The notes below the pieces were generated by a model. It did no database searches and was not told the origin of the DNA. It was given only the letters and a program-made list of their open reading frames with translations. Both the position numbers and the translations under genes were made by a program. A DNA stretch of 64,000 nucleotides, from positions 1-64,000 of the forward strand of contig DASRER010000002.1 of the NCBI GenBank assembly GCA_035651995.1, given 5' to 3'. The stretch is from Terriglobales bacterium. Lineage in GTDB: Bacteria > Acidobacteriota > Terriglobia > Terriglobales > Acidobacteriaceae. Shown in pieces: positions 1 through 6,499 of the stretch. How positions within the stretch are numbered: position 1 is the first letter of the stretch; every line of letters starts with the position of its first letter.

Positions 1-2
1 TT

Positions 3-56
3 CAGAAAATGTTGGAAATGCTCCTCAATCCGGATTATCTTCGCCATCGGGTGTAG
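3..56 (+). CDS. C-terminal end of an upstream gene (partial)
   Basis: The first bases read in frame 3 as QKMLEMLLNPDYLRHRV followed by TAG at 54-56. The composition is that of a real protein tail, and no start codon or Shine-Dalgarno precedes it in the window, so it is probably the end of a gene that begins outside. Too little is visible to name it. It could also be non-coding. Confidence 0.3.
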   Translation, partial: QKMLEMLLNPDYLRHRV

Positions 57-156
57 GTCTCCTTTCCAGGAACGGCTTCGCTTGCTAGGCAAAGCCAACT
101 TACACCCTCTCGCTTTTTACACAATCAACGTTACGTCACCCGGCCGGCACGCCGAT

Positions 157-186
157 TTGACAGTCCCGAGCCGCTCGCTGTACCAT
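157..186 (+). promoter_or_regulatory. Predicted sigma-70 promoter of the his operon
   Basis: A perfect -35 TTGACA (157-162) is followed after 18 nt by TACCAT (181-186), which matches TATAAT at four of six positions. Transcription would start near 193, only a few bases before the leader-peptide ATG at 197, so the leader mRNA would be nearly leaderless. The position upstream of an attenuator-like leader fits a his promoter. Nothing else recognisable lies in 57-156. Confidence 0.5.
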
Positions 187-196
187 CACTTCCCTC

Positions 197-265
197 ATGA
201 CCACGCCGACCCATCGCCACCATCATCACCACGCGGCGAGCGTGTCGGCGAAGGTCTGCGGATAG
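197..265 (+). CDS. hisL: his operon leader peptide (22 aa, His-rich)
   Basis: A 22-codon reading frame begins MTTPTHRHHHHHAASV and ends with TAG at 263-265. Codons 6 to 12 read His-Arg-His-His-His-His-His, using CAT and CAC, so six of seven are histidine. It sits between a TTGACA promoter and an intrinsic terminator directly upstream of hisI, the layout of leader peptides in enterobacterial his attenuation. No Shine-Dalgarno is visible, and with a transcription start near 193 it could be translated as a leaderless message. The role in sensing charged tRNA-His is inferred from the arrangement; the sequence itself is not similar to E. coli HisL apart from the His run. Confidence 0.75.
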   Translation: MTTPTHRHHHHHAASVSAKVCG

Positions 266-300
266 AGCCCTAAAAAGTTCATCATCCCGGCCCGCTGACG
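204..300 (+). promoter_or_regulatory. his attenuator: alternative RNA pairings (pause hairpin / antiterminator)
   Basis: CGCCGAC at 204-210 is a perfect 7-nt complement of GTCGGCG at 244-250, and the pair encloses the His codons (212-232). The 3' strand of that hairpin (241-243 plus 246-250, skipping two bases) can instead pair with CGCTGACG at 293-300, which is the 5' arm of the terminator. A ribosome stalled on the His codons would cover 204-210, free 244-250, and let the antiterminator form. The pairings are read directly from the bases; the mechanism is inferred by analogy with his, trp and leu attenuators. Confidence 0.6.
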
Positions 301-328
301 CGGCAACGTCAGCGGGCATTTTGTTTTT
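290..328 (+). terminator. Intrinsic terminator (attenuator) before hisI
   Basis: An 11-bp perfect stem (GCCCGCTGACG at 290-300 with CGTCAGCGGGC at 307-317, loop CGGCAA) is followed by ATTTTGTTTTT. This is a strong rho-independent terminator placed only 11 nt before the hisI start, which makes sense only as a conditional terminator. The hisI Shine-Dalgarno (GAGGA, 331-335) lies just past the T tract. Confidence 0.85.
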
Positions 329-339
329 GCGAGGAAGAC

Positions 340-714
340 ATGAAACCAGGTTCGCGGGAAGAGATCTCGATTGATTTCGAAAAAATGCAGGGGCTGGCGC
401 CGGCCATCGTGCAGGACGCCGCAACCGGCGAAGTGCTGATGCTCGGCTTCATGAACGCCGCTGCGTGGTTCGCCACGCTGCGCTGCGGCTTCGTCACGTT
501 CTACAGCCGAACGCGCAACAAGCTTTGGATGAAAGGCGAGACGAGCGGCAACCGGCTGGCGCTGGTCTCGGCGGCGACGGATTGCGACTCCGATTCGCTC
601 CTGCTGCGCGTGCGCGTGGAGGGCGCCGGCGTGGTGTGCCACGAAGGCACGCGCTCGTGCTTCACGCGTCCCATCGCGATTTCGGCGCCGGCGGCGCAGG
701 AGGCGGCGCAATGA
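340..714 (+). CDS. hisI: Phosphoribosyl-AMP cyclohydrolase
   Basis: This 124-aa cytosolic enzyme opens the purine ring of PR-AMP, the third step of histidine synthesis. It has the PR-AMP cyclohydrolase signature: the CDSDS metal-binding segment near residue 86 and the CHEGTRSCF motif near residue 107, whose cysteines bind zinc. It is the monofunctional form; no HisE (PR-ATP pyrophosphatase) domain is fused and no hisE lies in the window, so that step must be encoded elsewhere. The start is fixed by GAGGA five nt upstream. It is the first gene of the operon, behind the attenuator, and overlaps hisG by ATGA. Confidence 0.95.
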
Positions 715-1580
715 AGCTCCGACTCGGCATTCCCAAGGGCAGCCTGCAGGAAGCGACGCTGCAACTGTTCGCGCGCGCCGGGCTGAACGTCTACACCAGC
801 CCGCGCTCGTACTTTGCTTCGACCGATGATCCCGAGATCGAATGCATGCTGATTCGCGCGCAGGAGATGGCGCGCTACGTGGAGCACGGCGTGCTCGACG
901 CCGGACTCACCGGCCGCGATTGGGTGGTCGAGAGCGGACTCGAGGTGGTCAGCGTGGCCGACCTGATCTACGCCAAGCAGAGCCGCGGCAAGGTGCGTTG
1001 GGTACTTGCGGTGCCGGAAGATTCCAGGTTCCAGAACGCGCGCGATCTCGAGGGCTGCATCATCGCCACCGAACTGGTCAGCGTCACGCGCAACTGGTTT
1101 GCCGAGCGCGGCGTAAACGTCACCGTCGAATTTTCCTGGGGTGCGACCGAGGTCAAGCCGCCCATGCTCGCCGACGCCATTGTGGAGGTCACCGAGACCG
1201 GCAGCTCGCTGCGCGCCAACCGGCTGCGGATTCTGGAAACCGTGCTCGAGTCAAACACGCAGGTGATCGCCAATGGGAAAGCGTGGGAGGACGCCGCACG
1301 GCGCCGCAAAATCGAGAACCTGGCGCTGATGCTGTGCGGCGCCATCGCCGCGCAGGGGCGCGTGGGACTGATGCTCAACGTGGAGAAGCGCGACCTGACC
1401 AACGTGCTTGCCGTGCTGCCGGCGCTCAAGCGTCCGACGATCTCGCAACTGAGCGACGACGGCTGGGTGGCCGTGAACACGGTCATCGAAGAAACGGCCG
1501 CGCGCGAGATCATCCCGCGGCTGAAGGCAGCCAATGCGCAGGGCATCGTGGAGTACCCGCTGAACAAGGTGGTGATGTGA
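711..1580 (+). CDS. hisG: ATP phosphoribosyltransferase, long form
   Basis: HisG condenses ATP with PRPP, the first committed and feedback-inhibited step of histidine synthesis. At 289 aa it is the long form: an N-terminal catalytic domain beginning [13 protein letters not shown], the conserved [14 protein letters not shown] segment near residue 160, and a C-terminal ACT-like regulatory domain of about 75 residues ending in EYPLNKVV. Long forms carry their own histidine-sensing domain and do not need HisZ, and no hisZ is seen here. The ATG overlaps the hisI stop (ATGA), so the two are probably translationally coupled. Confidence 0.95.
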
Positions 1581-2824
1581 TGCGCATCGTGGCAGGCGGA
1601 AGGGCCGCAGCGACGGTAGCGCGGCTGGCGGACCGTGGCGCGGCAGCAACGGCGAGCGTAGAGCCGGCGGTGCGGCGGATTGTCGCCGCGGTGCGGCGCG
1701 GAGGCGATCGCGCCCTGGTTGCTTATGCGCGCAAGTTTGACGGGCTCGCGGCGAACCAGGCGCTGCGAGTGTCATCCGACGAATTGCAGGCGGCCTGGCG
1801 CGAGTGTCCTGCCGATCTGCGGGCGGCGCTTCGCGCTGCCGCGCGGAACATCCGGCGGTTCGCTCAGTGGCAGCGGCCGGCCGAATGGCGCCGGGAGATC
1901 GCGCCAGGGGTGTGCGTCGGGCAGCTCGTGCGGCCGCTCGAGTCGGTGGGCTGCTACGTTCCCGGAGGCAGGTATCCGCTGCCTTCGACGCTGCTCATGA
2001 CGGTGGTCCCGGCGCAGGTCGCGGGCGTGCGGCGGATCGCGGTGGTTTCGCCGCGACCCGCCAAGGAAACGCTTGCCGCGGCGGCGATGCTGGGTGTTAA
2101 GGAGTTTTACCGCATTGGCGGCGCACAGGCGATTGCGGCGCTCGCCTACGGAACGGAAACTGTTTCGCGCGTGGCAAAGATCGTTGGGCCGGGAAATCTT
2201 TATGTCACTGCCGCGAAGAAAATAGTGGCGTTCGATTGCGGAATTGATTTCCTCGCCGGTCCGACCGAGGCGCTGCTCGTCAGGGACGACGGCGACCTGG
2301 AATTCATCGCCGCCGACCTGGTTGCGCAAGCGGAGCACGATCCCGCGACACTGCCGGCGCTGATTACTTGCTCGCGAGCGCTTGCGCAAGACGTGGCGGC
2401 GATTGTGCGGCGCAAGTCGCGTGAGAACTCGGTTGCGCGAATGTCACTGCGCCGCAATGGCGTGATTCTGCTCGCGCGCTCGCCGGAGCAGGCGATGCAA
2501 TTTGCCAATCAGCTTGCGCCCGAGCACGTGAGCGTCAGCGCGGACGCCCTTCCTTCCGTTGAAAATGCCGGCTCGATTTTTGTGGGCGACTACTCGGCGC
2601 AGGCGTTTGGCGATTACGGCTCCGGACCGAACCATGTGCTGCCCACCGGCGGCATCGCTCGCTCGCGTGGCGGGCTGAGCGTGCTCGACTTCGTCAAGCT
2701 GATCACCGTGCAGGAGATTTCGCGCGAAGGAACGCGAAGCCTGCGGTGGGCCGGGCGACTCGGACAAGCGGAGGGACTGAGAGCTCATGCCGAATCCATC
2801 GAGGCGAGGTGCGCCCGTGCCTAA
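1580..2824 (+). CDS. hisD: Histidinol dehydrogenase
   Basis: This 414-aa zinc enzyme oxidises L-histidinol to histidine in two NAD-dependent steps, the last reactions of the pathway. Recognisable elements are the GPGNLYVTAAKK nucleotide-binding segment, the zinc-site QAEHDP motif near residue 250, and the LAPEHVSV motif with the catalytic Glu-His pair. Family length is about 430, so it is full length. Its ATG shares one base with the hisG TGA. The N-terminal ~40 residues are Ala/Arg-rich and poorly conserved, so a slightly later start is possible. Confidence 0.95.
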   Translation: MRIVAGGRAAATVARLADRGAAATASVEPAVRRIVAAVRRGGDRALVAYARKFDGLAANQALRVSSDELQAAWRECPADLRAALRAAARNIRRFAQWQRPAEWRREIAPGVCVGQLVRPLESVGCYVPGGRYPLPSTLLMTVVPAQVAGVRRIAVVSPRPAKETLAAAAMLGVKEFYRIGGAQAIAALAYGTETVSRVAKIVGPGNLYVTAAKKIVAFDCGIDFLAGPTEALLVRDDGDLEFIAADLVAQAEHDPATLPALITCSRALAQDVAAIVRRKSRENSVARMSLRRNGVILLARSPEQAMQFANQLAPEHVSVSADALPSVENAGSIFVGDYSAQAFGDYGSGPNHVLPTGGIARSRGGLSVLDFVKLITVQEISREGTRSLRWAGRLGQAEGLRAHAESIEARCARA

Positions 2825-3893
2825 GCCGCGCAAGGCCGTCGCCAGGCTGAAGGAGTACCACGCGCCCATTGCAGGCCGCACCGGCCTGCGGCTCGACTTC
2901 AACGAGAACACGCAAGGATGCTCGCCGCGCGTTCTCGAGCGCCTGCACGGGATCAGCGCAGACGACCTCGCGCGTTATCCCGAGCGCGCGCCGGTGGAGG
3001 CGCGCGTTGCGCGATTTCTTGGACTCGCGCCGGAGCAGGTGCTGCTGACCGCGGGCGTGGACGAGGCGATACACCTGGCGTGTGAGGCGTTCCTCGAGCC
3101 CGCCGACGAGGCGCTGATCGTTTCGCCGACCTTCGCGATGTACGAGATTCTTACATCGGCAACCGGCGCGACCGTTCGCGCCGTTCCTGCGGCGCCGAAC
3201 TTTCAGTTCCCGGCCGAAGCGCTGTTCGCAGCGGTCAATGGGAAAACGCGGATGATCGCCATCGCCAATCCCAACAATCCGACCGGCGCAGCGGTCGATC
3301 CGAAATTACTCACCGGCCTCGCCGAGACGGCGCGCGACATCGTCGTCTTCGTTGACGAGGCGTATTTCGAGTTCTGCGGGCAAAGCGCGCTCGAAGGCGT
3401 GCGGCGACTGCCGAATTTGCTCGTAGCGCGTACTTTTTCGAAGGCCTACGGGCTGGCGGCGCTGCGCGTTGGCGCGGTGGCCGGGAGTCAGGAGATGATC
3501 TCCGCGCTGCGGCGGCTGGCCACCCCCTACAACGTGAACGGCGTCGCGCTCGCGTGTGTTGAAGCTGCGCTCGCGGACCAGGACTACGTTCGCAATTACG
3601 TCGCGCAGGTGCGCGCCGGCCGCGAGGCGCTTCAAGCCGAGCTGCTGCGATTGAACGTCCCGTCGTGGCCGAGCGAAGCGAACTTCGTGCTCGCTGCGTT
3701 TGGCGACGCCCACGAAGAATTCGTAGAGAGGATGCGCGCCCGCGGAATCCTGGTGCGCGACCGCAGCTCCGATCCTGGCTGCGCCGGCTGCGTGCGCATC
3801 ACGATCGGCGCCGATGAGCACAACCGACAGCTCCTGGCGGCGTTGCGCGATGCGGTCGGCGAACTGCGCCAGCGGCAAGGAGCGGCGCGATGA
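2787..3893 (+). CDS. hisC: Histidinol-phosphate aminotransferase
   Basis: This 368-aa PLP enzyme of aminotransferase class I/II transfers an amino group from glutamate to imidazole-acetol phosphate. The Schiff-base lysine lies in [14 protein letters not shown], the NPNNPTGA loop is present, and the substrate-site motif LDFNENTQG is near the N-terminus. The ATG at 2787 has GGAGG 11 nt upstream and would overlap hisD by 38 nt. A GTG at 2817 has GAGG at an ideal 7-nt spacing and starts right at the hisD stop, so it is a serious alternative (358 aa). Confidence 0.93.
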
Positions 3894-4480
3894 AACGCCG
3901 CGCGCGGCTGCACCGCAAAACCAACGAAACCGACATTCGCGTCACGCTGGCGCTCGACGGCCGCGGGCGGTACCGGGTCCGGACCGGCATTCGCTTTTTC
4001 GATCACATGCTGGAGCTTTTCGCGCGGCACGGAGGATTTGACCTGGAGGTCGAGGCGCGCGGCGACCTCGACGTGGACCAGCACCACACGGTGGAAGACG
4101 TGGGCATCGCGCTGGGTGAGGCTTTCGCCGCCGCGCTTGGCGATAAGCGCGGGATCTTGCGCGCGGGCTACTACCTGATGCCGATGGACGAGACGCTCGG
4201 GCTGGCTGCGATTGACTTCGGCGGGCGGGCAGCGGCGGTGGTGGCCACCAAGGTCCGCGTAAGGCTGGTGGGCGACTTGCAGAGCGAACTGGTGCACGAC
4301 TTCTTCGAGGGCTTCGCGCGGGGCGCGCGCGTGAACCTGCACGCGCGCGTGCTTTACGGCCGCAGCAATCACCACAAGATCGAAGCGCTGTTCAAAGCGT
4401 TTGCGCGGGCGCTGCGCGTGGCGGTGGCGCGCGATTCGCGTCTTTCGCGCATGCTGCCTTCGACGAAAGGATTGCTGTGA
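3890..4480 (+). CDS. hisB: Imidazoleglycerol-phosphate dehydratase
   Basis: This 196-aa monofunctional IGPD dehydrates imidazole glycerol phosphate in a manganese-dependent reaction. The two manganese-site motifs are visible as [10 protein letters not shown] near residue 62 and [13 protein letters not shown] near residue 163, with the family motifs FFDHML and VHDFFEGFA. It lacks the histidinol-phosphatase domain found fused to HisB in enterobacteria, so a separate phosphatase must exist elsewhere. It overlaps hisC by ATGA and hisH by four bases. Confidence 0.95.
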
Positions 4481-5073
4481 TCGCGATCGTGGACTACCAG
4501 GCGGGGAATCTCGCGTCGGTAAAGAAGGCGCTCGATCACCTCGGCTTCGAGTCGGTGATCACAAACGATCGCAAGTTTGTGGGAAGCGCCGGCAAAATCA
4601 TTCTGCCGGGTGTGGGCAACTTCGCGGCGACCTCAGCTCTCCGCAGTTCAGGACTTGCGGAAACGATTCGCGAAGCGATCGCACGCGGAACCCCGTTCCT
4701 GGGCATCTGCGTGGGCATGCAATGGATGTTCGACGGCAGCGAGGAAGCGCCCGGCGTGGCGGGGCTCGGAGTGTTCCCGGGCCGATGCGGACGCTTCCCT
4801 TCCGGCGTGAAGTCCCCGCATGTGGGCTGGAACCGGCTTCAGCCGCGGCGACCGTCGCAGCTGCTCCGAGGCATCGAGCCGGGGGCCTTCGTTTACTACA
4901 CGCACTCGTATCGCGCGCCCGCCGGCGCGGGCACGGTCGCGGAAAGCAGCTATGGCGGCCAGTTTGCGGCCGTCGTGGAGCGCGGGAATGCGTTCGGCGT
5001 TCAGTTTCATCCGGAAAAGTCGGCGGAAACAGGGCTGAAGCTGCTGGCGAATTTCTGCGAGGCGGCATGCTGA
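4477..5073 (+). CDS. hisH: Imidazole glycerol phosphate synthase, glutaminase subunit
   Basis: HisH is the class I glutamine amidotransferase that feeds ammonia to HisF. The nucleophile is Cys78 in GICVGMQ, and the catalytic His178 and Glu180 lie in HPEKS; the oxyanion segment PGVGNF is present near residue 44. The length (198 aa) is typical. The start is a GTG overlapping the hisB stop, and the next gene is its partner hisF, starting 7 nt before the hisH stop, which fits co-translational assembly of the heterodimer. Confidence 0.95.
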
Positions 5074-5831
5074 CGCGCCGCATCATCGCGTGCCTCGACG
5101 TGGATGGCGGCCGCGTGGTGAAGGGCGTGAGGTTCCTGCACCTGCGCGATGCCGGCGATCCGGCGGAGCTTGCGCGGGCGCACGCCGCCGCAGGAGCGGA
5201 CGAAATCGTTCTGCTCGACATCACCGCGACGCACGAGCGGCGCGCCACCTTGCTGGACTGCGTGCGCCGAACCGCGCGTGAACTGTTCATCCCGTTCACG
5301 GTCGGAGGCGGAATCCGAACGCTCCGCGACGCGGCCGCGGTGTTCGACGCCGGCGCCGACAAGGTCGCGATCAACTCGGCCGCGGTCGAGCGCCCGGAAC
5401 TGATCGGTGAAATTGCCGAACGTTTCGGCTCGCAGGCGGTGATCGTGGCGGTGGATGCGCGCCGAGCGAACGGAAACGGCGCCGAAGTGTACGTATCCGG
5501 CGGGCGCATTCCAACCGGTCGCGATGTGATTGCGTGGGCGCGCGAAGCGGAACAGCGCGGCGCGGGAGAGATCCTGCTCACTTCCATGGACCGTGACGGC
5601 ACGCGCCGGGGCTTCGATTGCGAGCTGACGGCGAGCATTGCCGCGGCGGTGCAGATTCCCGTGATCGCCTCGGGCGGCGGGGGCAGCGTGGCGGATTTTT
5701 TCGATGTGTTCCGCGCCGGCCGCGCCGATGCCGCGCTGGCGGCGAGCATTTTTCACTTCGGCGTCCACAGCGCGGCCGAGCTGAAGCAGCGCCTTGCCGC
5801 CGCCGGCGTTCCGGTGAGGTGGCCGTGCTGA
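5067..5831 (+). CDS. hisF: Imidazole glycerol phosphate synthase, cyclase subunit
   Basis: HisF is a (beta/alpha)8 barrel that closes the imidazole ring with ammonia from HisH, giving imidazole glycerol phosphate and AICAR. The catalytic aspartates are visible in IACLDVDGG (about residue 11) and VAVDARR (about residue 130), and the phosphate-binding loops in VGGGIRT and IASGGGG. At 254 aa it is full length. It overlaps hisH by 7 nt and hisA by 7 nt. Confidence 0.95.
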
Positions 5832-6499
5832 TTCCTTCGATAGACCTGATGGGCGGCAAGATCGTGCAGCTGGTGGGCGGCGCGCGGAAGACGCTGGAGA
5901 CTGACGACTTCGACGGCTGGATGGCGCGCTTCGCCCCGTATCCGATGGTGCAGCTGATCGATCTCGACGCCGCCATGAACAAGGGCAGCAATCGCGAGCT
6001 GGTCACCAGGATCGCTTCGCGACTTCCCTGCCAGGTCGGCGGAGGCGTGCGCGACCTCGCCGCGGCCGAGGAGCTGCTGGCCGCGGGAGCGCGGCGAGTG
6101 ATCATCGGCTCATCGCTGGTGAGAAACGGGAAGCCGGATGTGGCGTTTGCGGCAGCGATTGCGGCGGCCGTTTCCTCCGAGCGGCTGGTGTTTGCGGTGG
6201 ATTCGCGCGCGGGCAAGGTTGCGGTCAGCGGCTGGAGCGAGCAGACCGCGCTCGAACCCATCGAGATGATGCGAGCGCTCGAGCCCTGGTGCGGAGCATT
6301 TCTGTATACGCACATTGACACCGAGGGACAGCTACGCGGGTTTCCGCTGGACGTTGCGGAACAACTGCGGCGAGCGACCGCACGGCAAATCGCTGTCGCA
6401 GGCGGCGTCCGGTCACACGAAGAAGTCGCGGCACTCGATGCGCTGGGCCTGGACGCGGTGGTGGGCATGGCAATCTACACCGGCGTGATGCAGGCGTAG
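5825..6499 (+). CDS. hisA: ProFAR isomerase (1-(5-phosphoribosyl)-5-[(5-phosphoribosylamino)methylideneamino]imidazole-4-carboxamide isomerase)
   Basis: HisA performs the Amadori isomerisation of ProFAR to PRFAR. The barrel aspartates are in IPSIDLMGG and [15 protein letters not shown], and the phosphate loops are VGGGVRD and AVAGGVR. The start is taken as GTG 5825 because GAGG lies five nt upstream and the protein then begins at IPSIDL as in the family; GTG 5819 is possible. At 224 aa it is somewhat short for HisA (about 240). It is the last his gene; no clear terminator follows before the convergent gene ending at 6534. Confidence 0.93.

Follow-up and report, generated by a model that had tools for sequence, protein, structure and literature searches.

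A very probable ribosome-mediated transcription attenuator upstream of the hisI-led histidine operon in Acidobacteriota

Close to one end of contig DASRER010000002.1, from the assembly GCA_035651995.1 of a Terriglobales bacterium (Acidobacteriaceae), an operon for histidine biosynthesis is preceded by a very short open reading frame rich in His codons and by a hairpin with a T tract behind it. The question that this arrangement raises is whether its parts together constitute a switch through which the supply of histidine governs transcription of the operon, and, if so, how widely such a switch is distributed. The original prediction, made from the letters of the DNA, held that a complete classical his attenuator is present in what appeared to be an acidobacterium. 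The analysis described here supports that reading, in that the hisIGDCBHFA operon is very probably controlled, through this element, by ribosome-mediated attenuation of transcription. In what follows, the window denotes the whole stretch of 64,000 nucleotides that was analysed, and all features for which window coordinates are given lie on its forward (+) strand.

The first base of the window is the end of the contig, such that 196 nt precede the leader ORF. This ORF, hisL, occupies positions 197–265 and comprises 22 codons and a stop (ATG to TAG), its product being MTTPTHRHHHHHAASVSAKVCG. As originally predicted, six His codons fall within a run of seven at 212–232 (CAT CGC CAC CAT CAT CAC CAC, that is H R H H H H H), and a His-rich stretch is found in all relatives that have the leader. 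Downstream, hisI (340–714), which encodes phosphoribosyl-AMP cyclohydrolase and is recognised by NCBIfam NF000768 at its cut-off, is the first gene of the operon that would be controlled, with hisG, hisD, hisC, hisB, hisH, hisF and hisA following at 711–6499. The gene order is intact and all eight genes are identified by NCBIfam, hisA (TIGR00007) below the curated cut-off. The combination of a His-run ORF with a terminator exceeds chance: when both strands of 40 loci of ~4–16 kb were searched for short ORFs containing at least five of one residue within eight codons together with a strong terminator, 14 cases of the His type were found as against none for N, Q, K, Y, W, F or C.

With regard to transcription of the leader, the sole promoter match within positions 1–700 is of the sigma-70 type (TTGACA at 157–162, an 18-nt spacer and TACCAT at 181–186), as against 0.0 ± 0.2 matches in shuffled sequences. 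The leader ORF starts 10 nt past the −10 hexamer, and the predicted transcription start, at ~193, would leave a 5′ UTR of ~4 nt. A strong promoter of similar geometry precedes 106 of 115 leaders, and in these 106 the distance from the −10 hexamer to the start codon has a median of 9 nt and a 5–95% range of 6–12 nt, thus implying a 5′ UTR of 0–6 nt; of 14 leaders scored from ten other families of the phylum, 12 have a spacing of 9. AUG serves as the start codon for 112 of 115 leaders, as called by a finder with a slight preference for AUG. Shine-Dalgarno-like 4-mers, lacking in the window's leader, occur before only four of the 115 leaders (6.8% in shuffles), as against 25 of 39 hisI starts. 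Given a promoter that adjoins the leader start and the lack of a Shine-Dalgarno sequence, the mRNA on which the leader is translated is probably leaderless, its start being predicted here from promoter geometry. In Acidobacteria, ~13% of genes are predicted to be leaderless (PMC3160421).

Four segments make up the putative switch. Segment 1 (CGCCGAC, 204–210) and segment 2 (CGUGUCGGCGA, 241–251), a conserved RNA switch strand, both lie within the leader ORF. Segment 3 (290–302) contains both the 5′ arm of the terminator (290–300) and the partner of segment 2 (293–302), while segment 4 (307–329) contains the 3′ arm (307–317) and the U tract ATTTTGTTTTTG (318–329). The terminator scan of the window places an 11-bp stem with a 6-nt loop at 290–317, followed by ATTTTGTTTT, ahead of hisI at 340, and the terminator originally described is thereby confirmed. 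The alternative pairing that had been proposed, 241–250 with 293–300, is also present, its actual extent being 241–250 with 293–302, i.e. 10 bp when U243–G300 and G247–U296 are counted.

It could be supposed that these same parts act on translation, the leader and hairpin controlling, through reinitiation or sequestration, how accessible the hisI start is, and the end of the terminator hairpin does lie only ~40 nt (median) before that start. Such an explanation is nevertheless very unlikely, since a U tract stands behind the hairpin in nearly all relatives and the window stem at 290–317 excludes the GAGGA that precedes hisI; moreover, reinitiation accompanies a short distance between stop and start (PMC4833913), whereas 74 nt separate the leader stop from the hisI start here.

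Folding is consistent with attenuation of transcription. The RNA of positions 190–335 is more stable than its dinucleotide shuffles (z = −4.43; none of 200 shuffles equally stable), and its minimum free energy (MFE) structure joins 204–210 to 244–250. When folding of the window RNA is constrained by ribosome position, much as the original prediction had proposed, the outcome is the one foreseen: the terminator is the fold of the naked RNA and of the RNA with a ribosome at the stop codon, and with a ribosome at the first His codon the antiterminator becomes the MFE structure even at full length (−40.6 kcal/mol). For stalls at the second or last His codons the terminator remains the MFE structure of the full-length window RNA; the timing of transcription must therefore matter. 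With the 3′ arm of the terminator still to be transcribed, the stalled state forms the antiterminator in 110 of 115 leaders, and naked RNA lacking segment 4 already forms it in 72 of 115. Compared with shuffles of single sequences, the energy of the duplex between segments 2 and 3 is only moderately low (median z −2.4; −1.1 in the window) because the region is GC-rich, and for several of the families further removed the two segments are only weakly complementary. For this pairing, covariation is the stronger test.

Covariation was assessed in an alignment (A1) in which segment 2 occupies columns 75–85 and segment 3 columns 171–182. Six of the 11 antiterminator pairs show two-sided changes, and the compensatory cells number 53 for the antiterminator, as against 17.1 in shuffles and 3–24 when the pairing is slid, and 56 for the terminator, as against 29.2 in shuffles. 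Variant pairs of segments 2 and 3 include UGCCGGCGG with CCGCCGGCA, GUGUUGGCGG with CCGCUAACGC, and GUGUCAGCGG with CCGCUGACGC. Since segment 3 is common to both helices, any change in it needs to be matched on two sides, and such two-sided matching is as expected of a true switch. In five leaders (L012, L017, L028, L032 and L047) a natural frameshift places segment 2 in another reading frame with its RNA sequence retained, from which it follows that selection after the His run acts on the RNA and not on the peptide. These cases were identified by direct inspection, since a regular-expression search for the segment 2 frame had falsely matched GGCGAGCG. The conserved peptide tail VSAxxCG had been entertained as a functional motif and was dropped, given that the five frameshifts lose the peptide and keep the RNA. 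Observed directly in the present work are the parts of the switch, the conservation of those parts, covariation in each of the alternative helices and, in silico, a thermodynamic switch.

The same observations bear on a quite different explanation, in which the terminator marks the end of a transcript coming from upstream, the His-rich ORF being either incidental or the source of a functional metal-binding micropeptide. Peptides of poly-His bind metals, and any upstream gene lies outside view, only 196 nt being available before the leader. Against this, a strong promoter separates any such gene from the leader, the antiterminator covaries, the frameshifts forfeit the peptide tail while the RNA persists, and the element co-occurs with hisI, all of which render the explanation extremely improbable.

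For the attenuator, we infer where transcription starts, that the leader is translated and how the system responds to histidine, as follows. RNA polymerase would start ~4 nt before the leader AUG, and a ribosome would initiate on the nearly leaderless mRNA with no Shine-Dalgarno sequence. Under a shortage of charged His-tRNA, the ribosome would stall at the His codons (212–232) and sequester the 5′ part of the leader, leaving segment 2 (241–250) free to pair with segment 3 (293–302), i.e. with the 5′ arm of the terminator, such that transcription would read through into hisI. With ample histidine, the ribosome would reach the UAG at 263–265 and cover or clear segment 2, which is otherwise paired upstream; segment 3 would then join segment 4, and transcription would end at the U tract (318–329).

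In this regard, the hairpin between segment 1 and segment 2 (204–210/244–250), which in the original prediction would be masked by a ribosome stalled on the His codons, stands only in part. It is a good hairpin, and is the MFE pairing in the window, but it is lineage-specific: all seven of its pairs are present in 10 of 86 sequences, and covariation is absent at its columns, for which reason it was rejected as a family-wide feature. In 86 of 87 folds segment 2 nevertheless has an upstream partner, and its upstream helices exceed those of codon-order shuffles in length (5.83 vs 5.04, p = 3e-9). The protector function thus seems to be maintained by varying partners, perhaps with the aid of a ribosome at the stop codon. 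From the lack of covariation in this helix, and from the antiterminator that forms in the naked RNAs, it follows that no single helix accounts everywhere for blocking the antiterminator when histidine is plentiful; the ribosome itself may do so. As a separate observation, in the window and its relatives the His run is very often broken, at a similar position, by Arg or Gly codons (CGC, GGC, GGT). Being rich in C and G, these triplets are able to pair with segment 2, and the interruption may be explained in this way.

As to distribution, a His-run ORF lies shortly upstream of hisI in all 51 loci of a set comprising the window, 29 loci from a HisI search of relatives and 21 from an order-wide search (48 from Acidobacteriaceae and three from a sister family, f2), and 39 further Acidobacteriaceae regions likewise carry such a leader. 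In one Acidobacteriaceae genome (G188) the leader peptide is identical to that of Acidipila rosea (NZ_SMGK01000005.1). Conservation among relatives, the lack of which had originally been named as a ground for refutation, was found for the His run, the terminator and the antiterminator. When 20 regions representing other families in the order and class were scanned for ORFs, six showed no leader, one of these being a contig end; of the six genomes, at least G053 has the element beside hisI according to a covariance model. Further afield, all 17 loci from ten other families of the phylum (f23, f54, f66, f32, f52, f84, f70, f41, f91 and f37) have a His-run leader before hisI, with a terminator and U tract after it in most, the three f23 loci being unclear. 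One of these families, f66, we take to be probably Vicinamibacteria (Luteitalea-like), and some of the further families with a hisI leader probably belong to another class. No His-run leader was found in 20 regions from 17 further families, with the exception of genome G340. There (L262, contig C6, minus strand, ~3323; family f29) a separate His-rich leader, MQLSSLNIHLHHHHHVHHTRVM, and a terminator precede an apparent hisG, possibly as an independent attenuator.

The covariance model, built on 86 leaders with the antiterminator helix as its structure, finds the leader as the only convincing match in the window's own genome (E = 3.4e-22, the next best being 0.016), and across the class it matches 188 of 249 genomes. 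Within Acidobacteriaceae, 70 of 71 genomes with hisI have a match, as against one, a weak one, of six with no hisI match (Fisher p = 2e-6). The exception among the 71 (G100) has a divergent leader on the minus strand, L101, seen by the ORF scan and missed by the model. In this leader, and in L054–L061 of family f2, the His codons are few or scattered (e.g. MSRSYHHDLHHLHELHACGQP) with terminator and position kept, and we read these as diverged or degenerate attenuators. Separately, the order-wide search gave no HisI match for 30 of 200 genomes, the majority of which are nearly complete; those that were tested mostly lack the leader as well, a hint that some genera have lost hisI or histidine synthesis. 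A genome-wide scan with the consensus pattern of segments 2 and 3 returned mostly chance matches in high-GC genomes, true leaders accounting for 13 of the 80 loci fetched. Overall, from comparison of these genomes the switch would appear to be conserved across much of the acidobacterial phylum.

The relation of this element to known systems is of some importance. A His-specific T-box, or another riboswitch that binds tRNA or a ligand, merits brief consideration since T-boxes are used by the his operons of some Gram-positives (PMC9413887). A search of positions 1–3000 against Rfam (cmscan, E ≤ 10) found neither, and such a device would give no function to the conserved start codon, the open frame or the His run, so that this explanation has next to no likelihood. 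The same stretch, at the same E-value, gave no match to RF00514 (His_leader), and with the gathering score of 49 bits as cut-off none of 31 relatives lies above it, the window's leader being unmatched; one control genome lies above the cut-off, and E. coli is among those matched. The hisL of E. coli and Salmonella, to which RF00514 refers, shares with the acidobacterial leader a peptide with a His run, alternative stems and an intrinsic terminator before a complete his operon. The acidobacterial leader, however, has no sequence or covariance-model match to it, is apparently leaderless, has a His run usually split by Arg or Gly codons and contains segment 2 inside its ORF, and its operon opens with hisI rather than hisG.

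Beyond the gamma-proteobacteria, the novelty that was originally claimed for such an attenuator proves too strong. Leader-peptide attenuators for his genes have already been predicted in Firmicutes, namely in the B. cereus group, Peptostreptococcaceae and Erysipelotrichales (PMC9413887) and at hisS/hisZ of bacilli (PMC2965389). These have in common with the present element a short leader with several His codons, a terminator with an antiterminator, and hosts that are not gamma-proteobacteria, but they belong to a different phylum and to narrow groups of few species, whereas the acidobacterial attenuator spans a class and beyond and has hisI as its first gene. For the geometry, a likeness exists to the leu/trp/ilv leader peptides of Streptomyces lividans (PMC8079986), which have no 5′ UTR and several of which are followed by an intrinsic terminator; those leaders serve other amino acids, with no His attenuator in that study, and their starts were mapped by RNA-seq, whereas the acidobacterial starts are predicted. 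The element is accordingly of a functionally known kind, classical his attenuation, outside the Rfam His_leader family, and is notable for its breadth, its covariation and its leaderless geometry. No report of a his attenuator in Acidobacteriota was found in the open-access literature searched, and this may tentatively be the first.

In a genome survey, almost no attenuators of Acidobacteria had an assigned function (PMC2965389). One is now given a function, with covariation, across one class and probably a second, and the finding fits a repeated, independent origin of leader-peptide attenuation. The covariance model is usable for annotating uncultured soil bacteria, and the leader provides a leaderless test case for the coupling of transcription and translation in a phylum hardly studied in that respect. 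A further proposal, possible if on the whole doubtful, is that this lineage of attenuators is independent of the gamma-proteobacterial one, ancestral to at least two acidobacterial classes, and built on a leaderless leader peptide. Were this true, the switch would sense 70S initiation at a 5′-terminal AUG besides charged His-tRNA, and expression of the his genes would gain a second input that is absent from attenuators led by a Shine-Dalgarno sequence.
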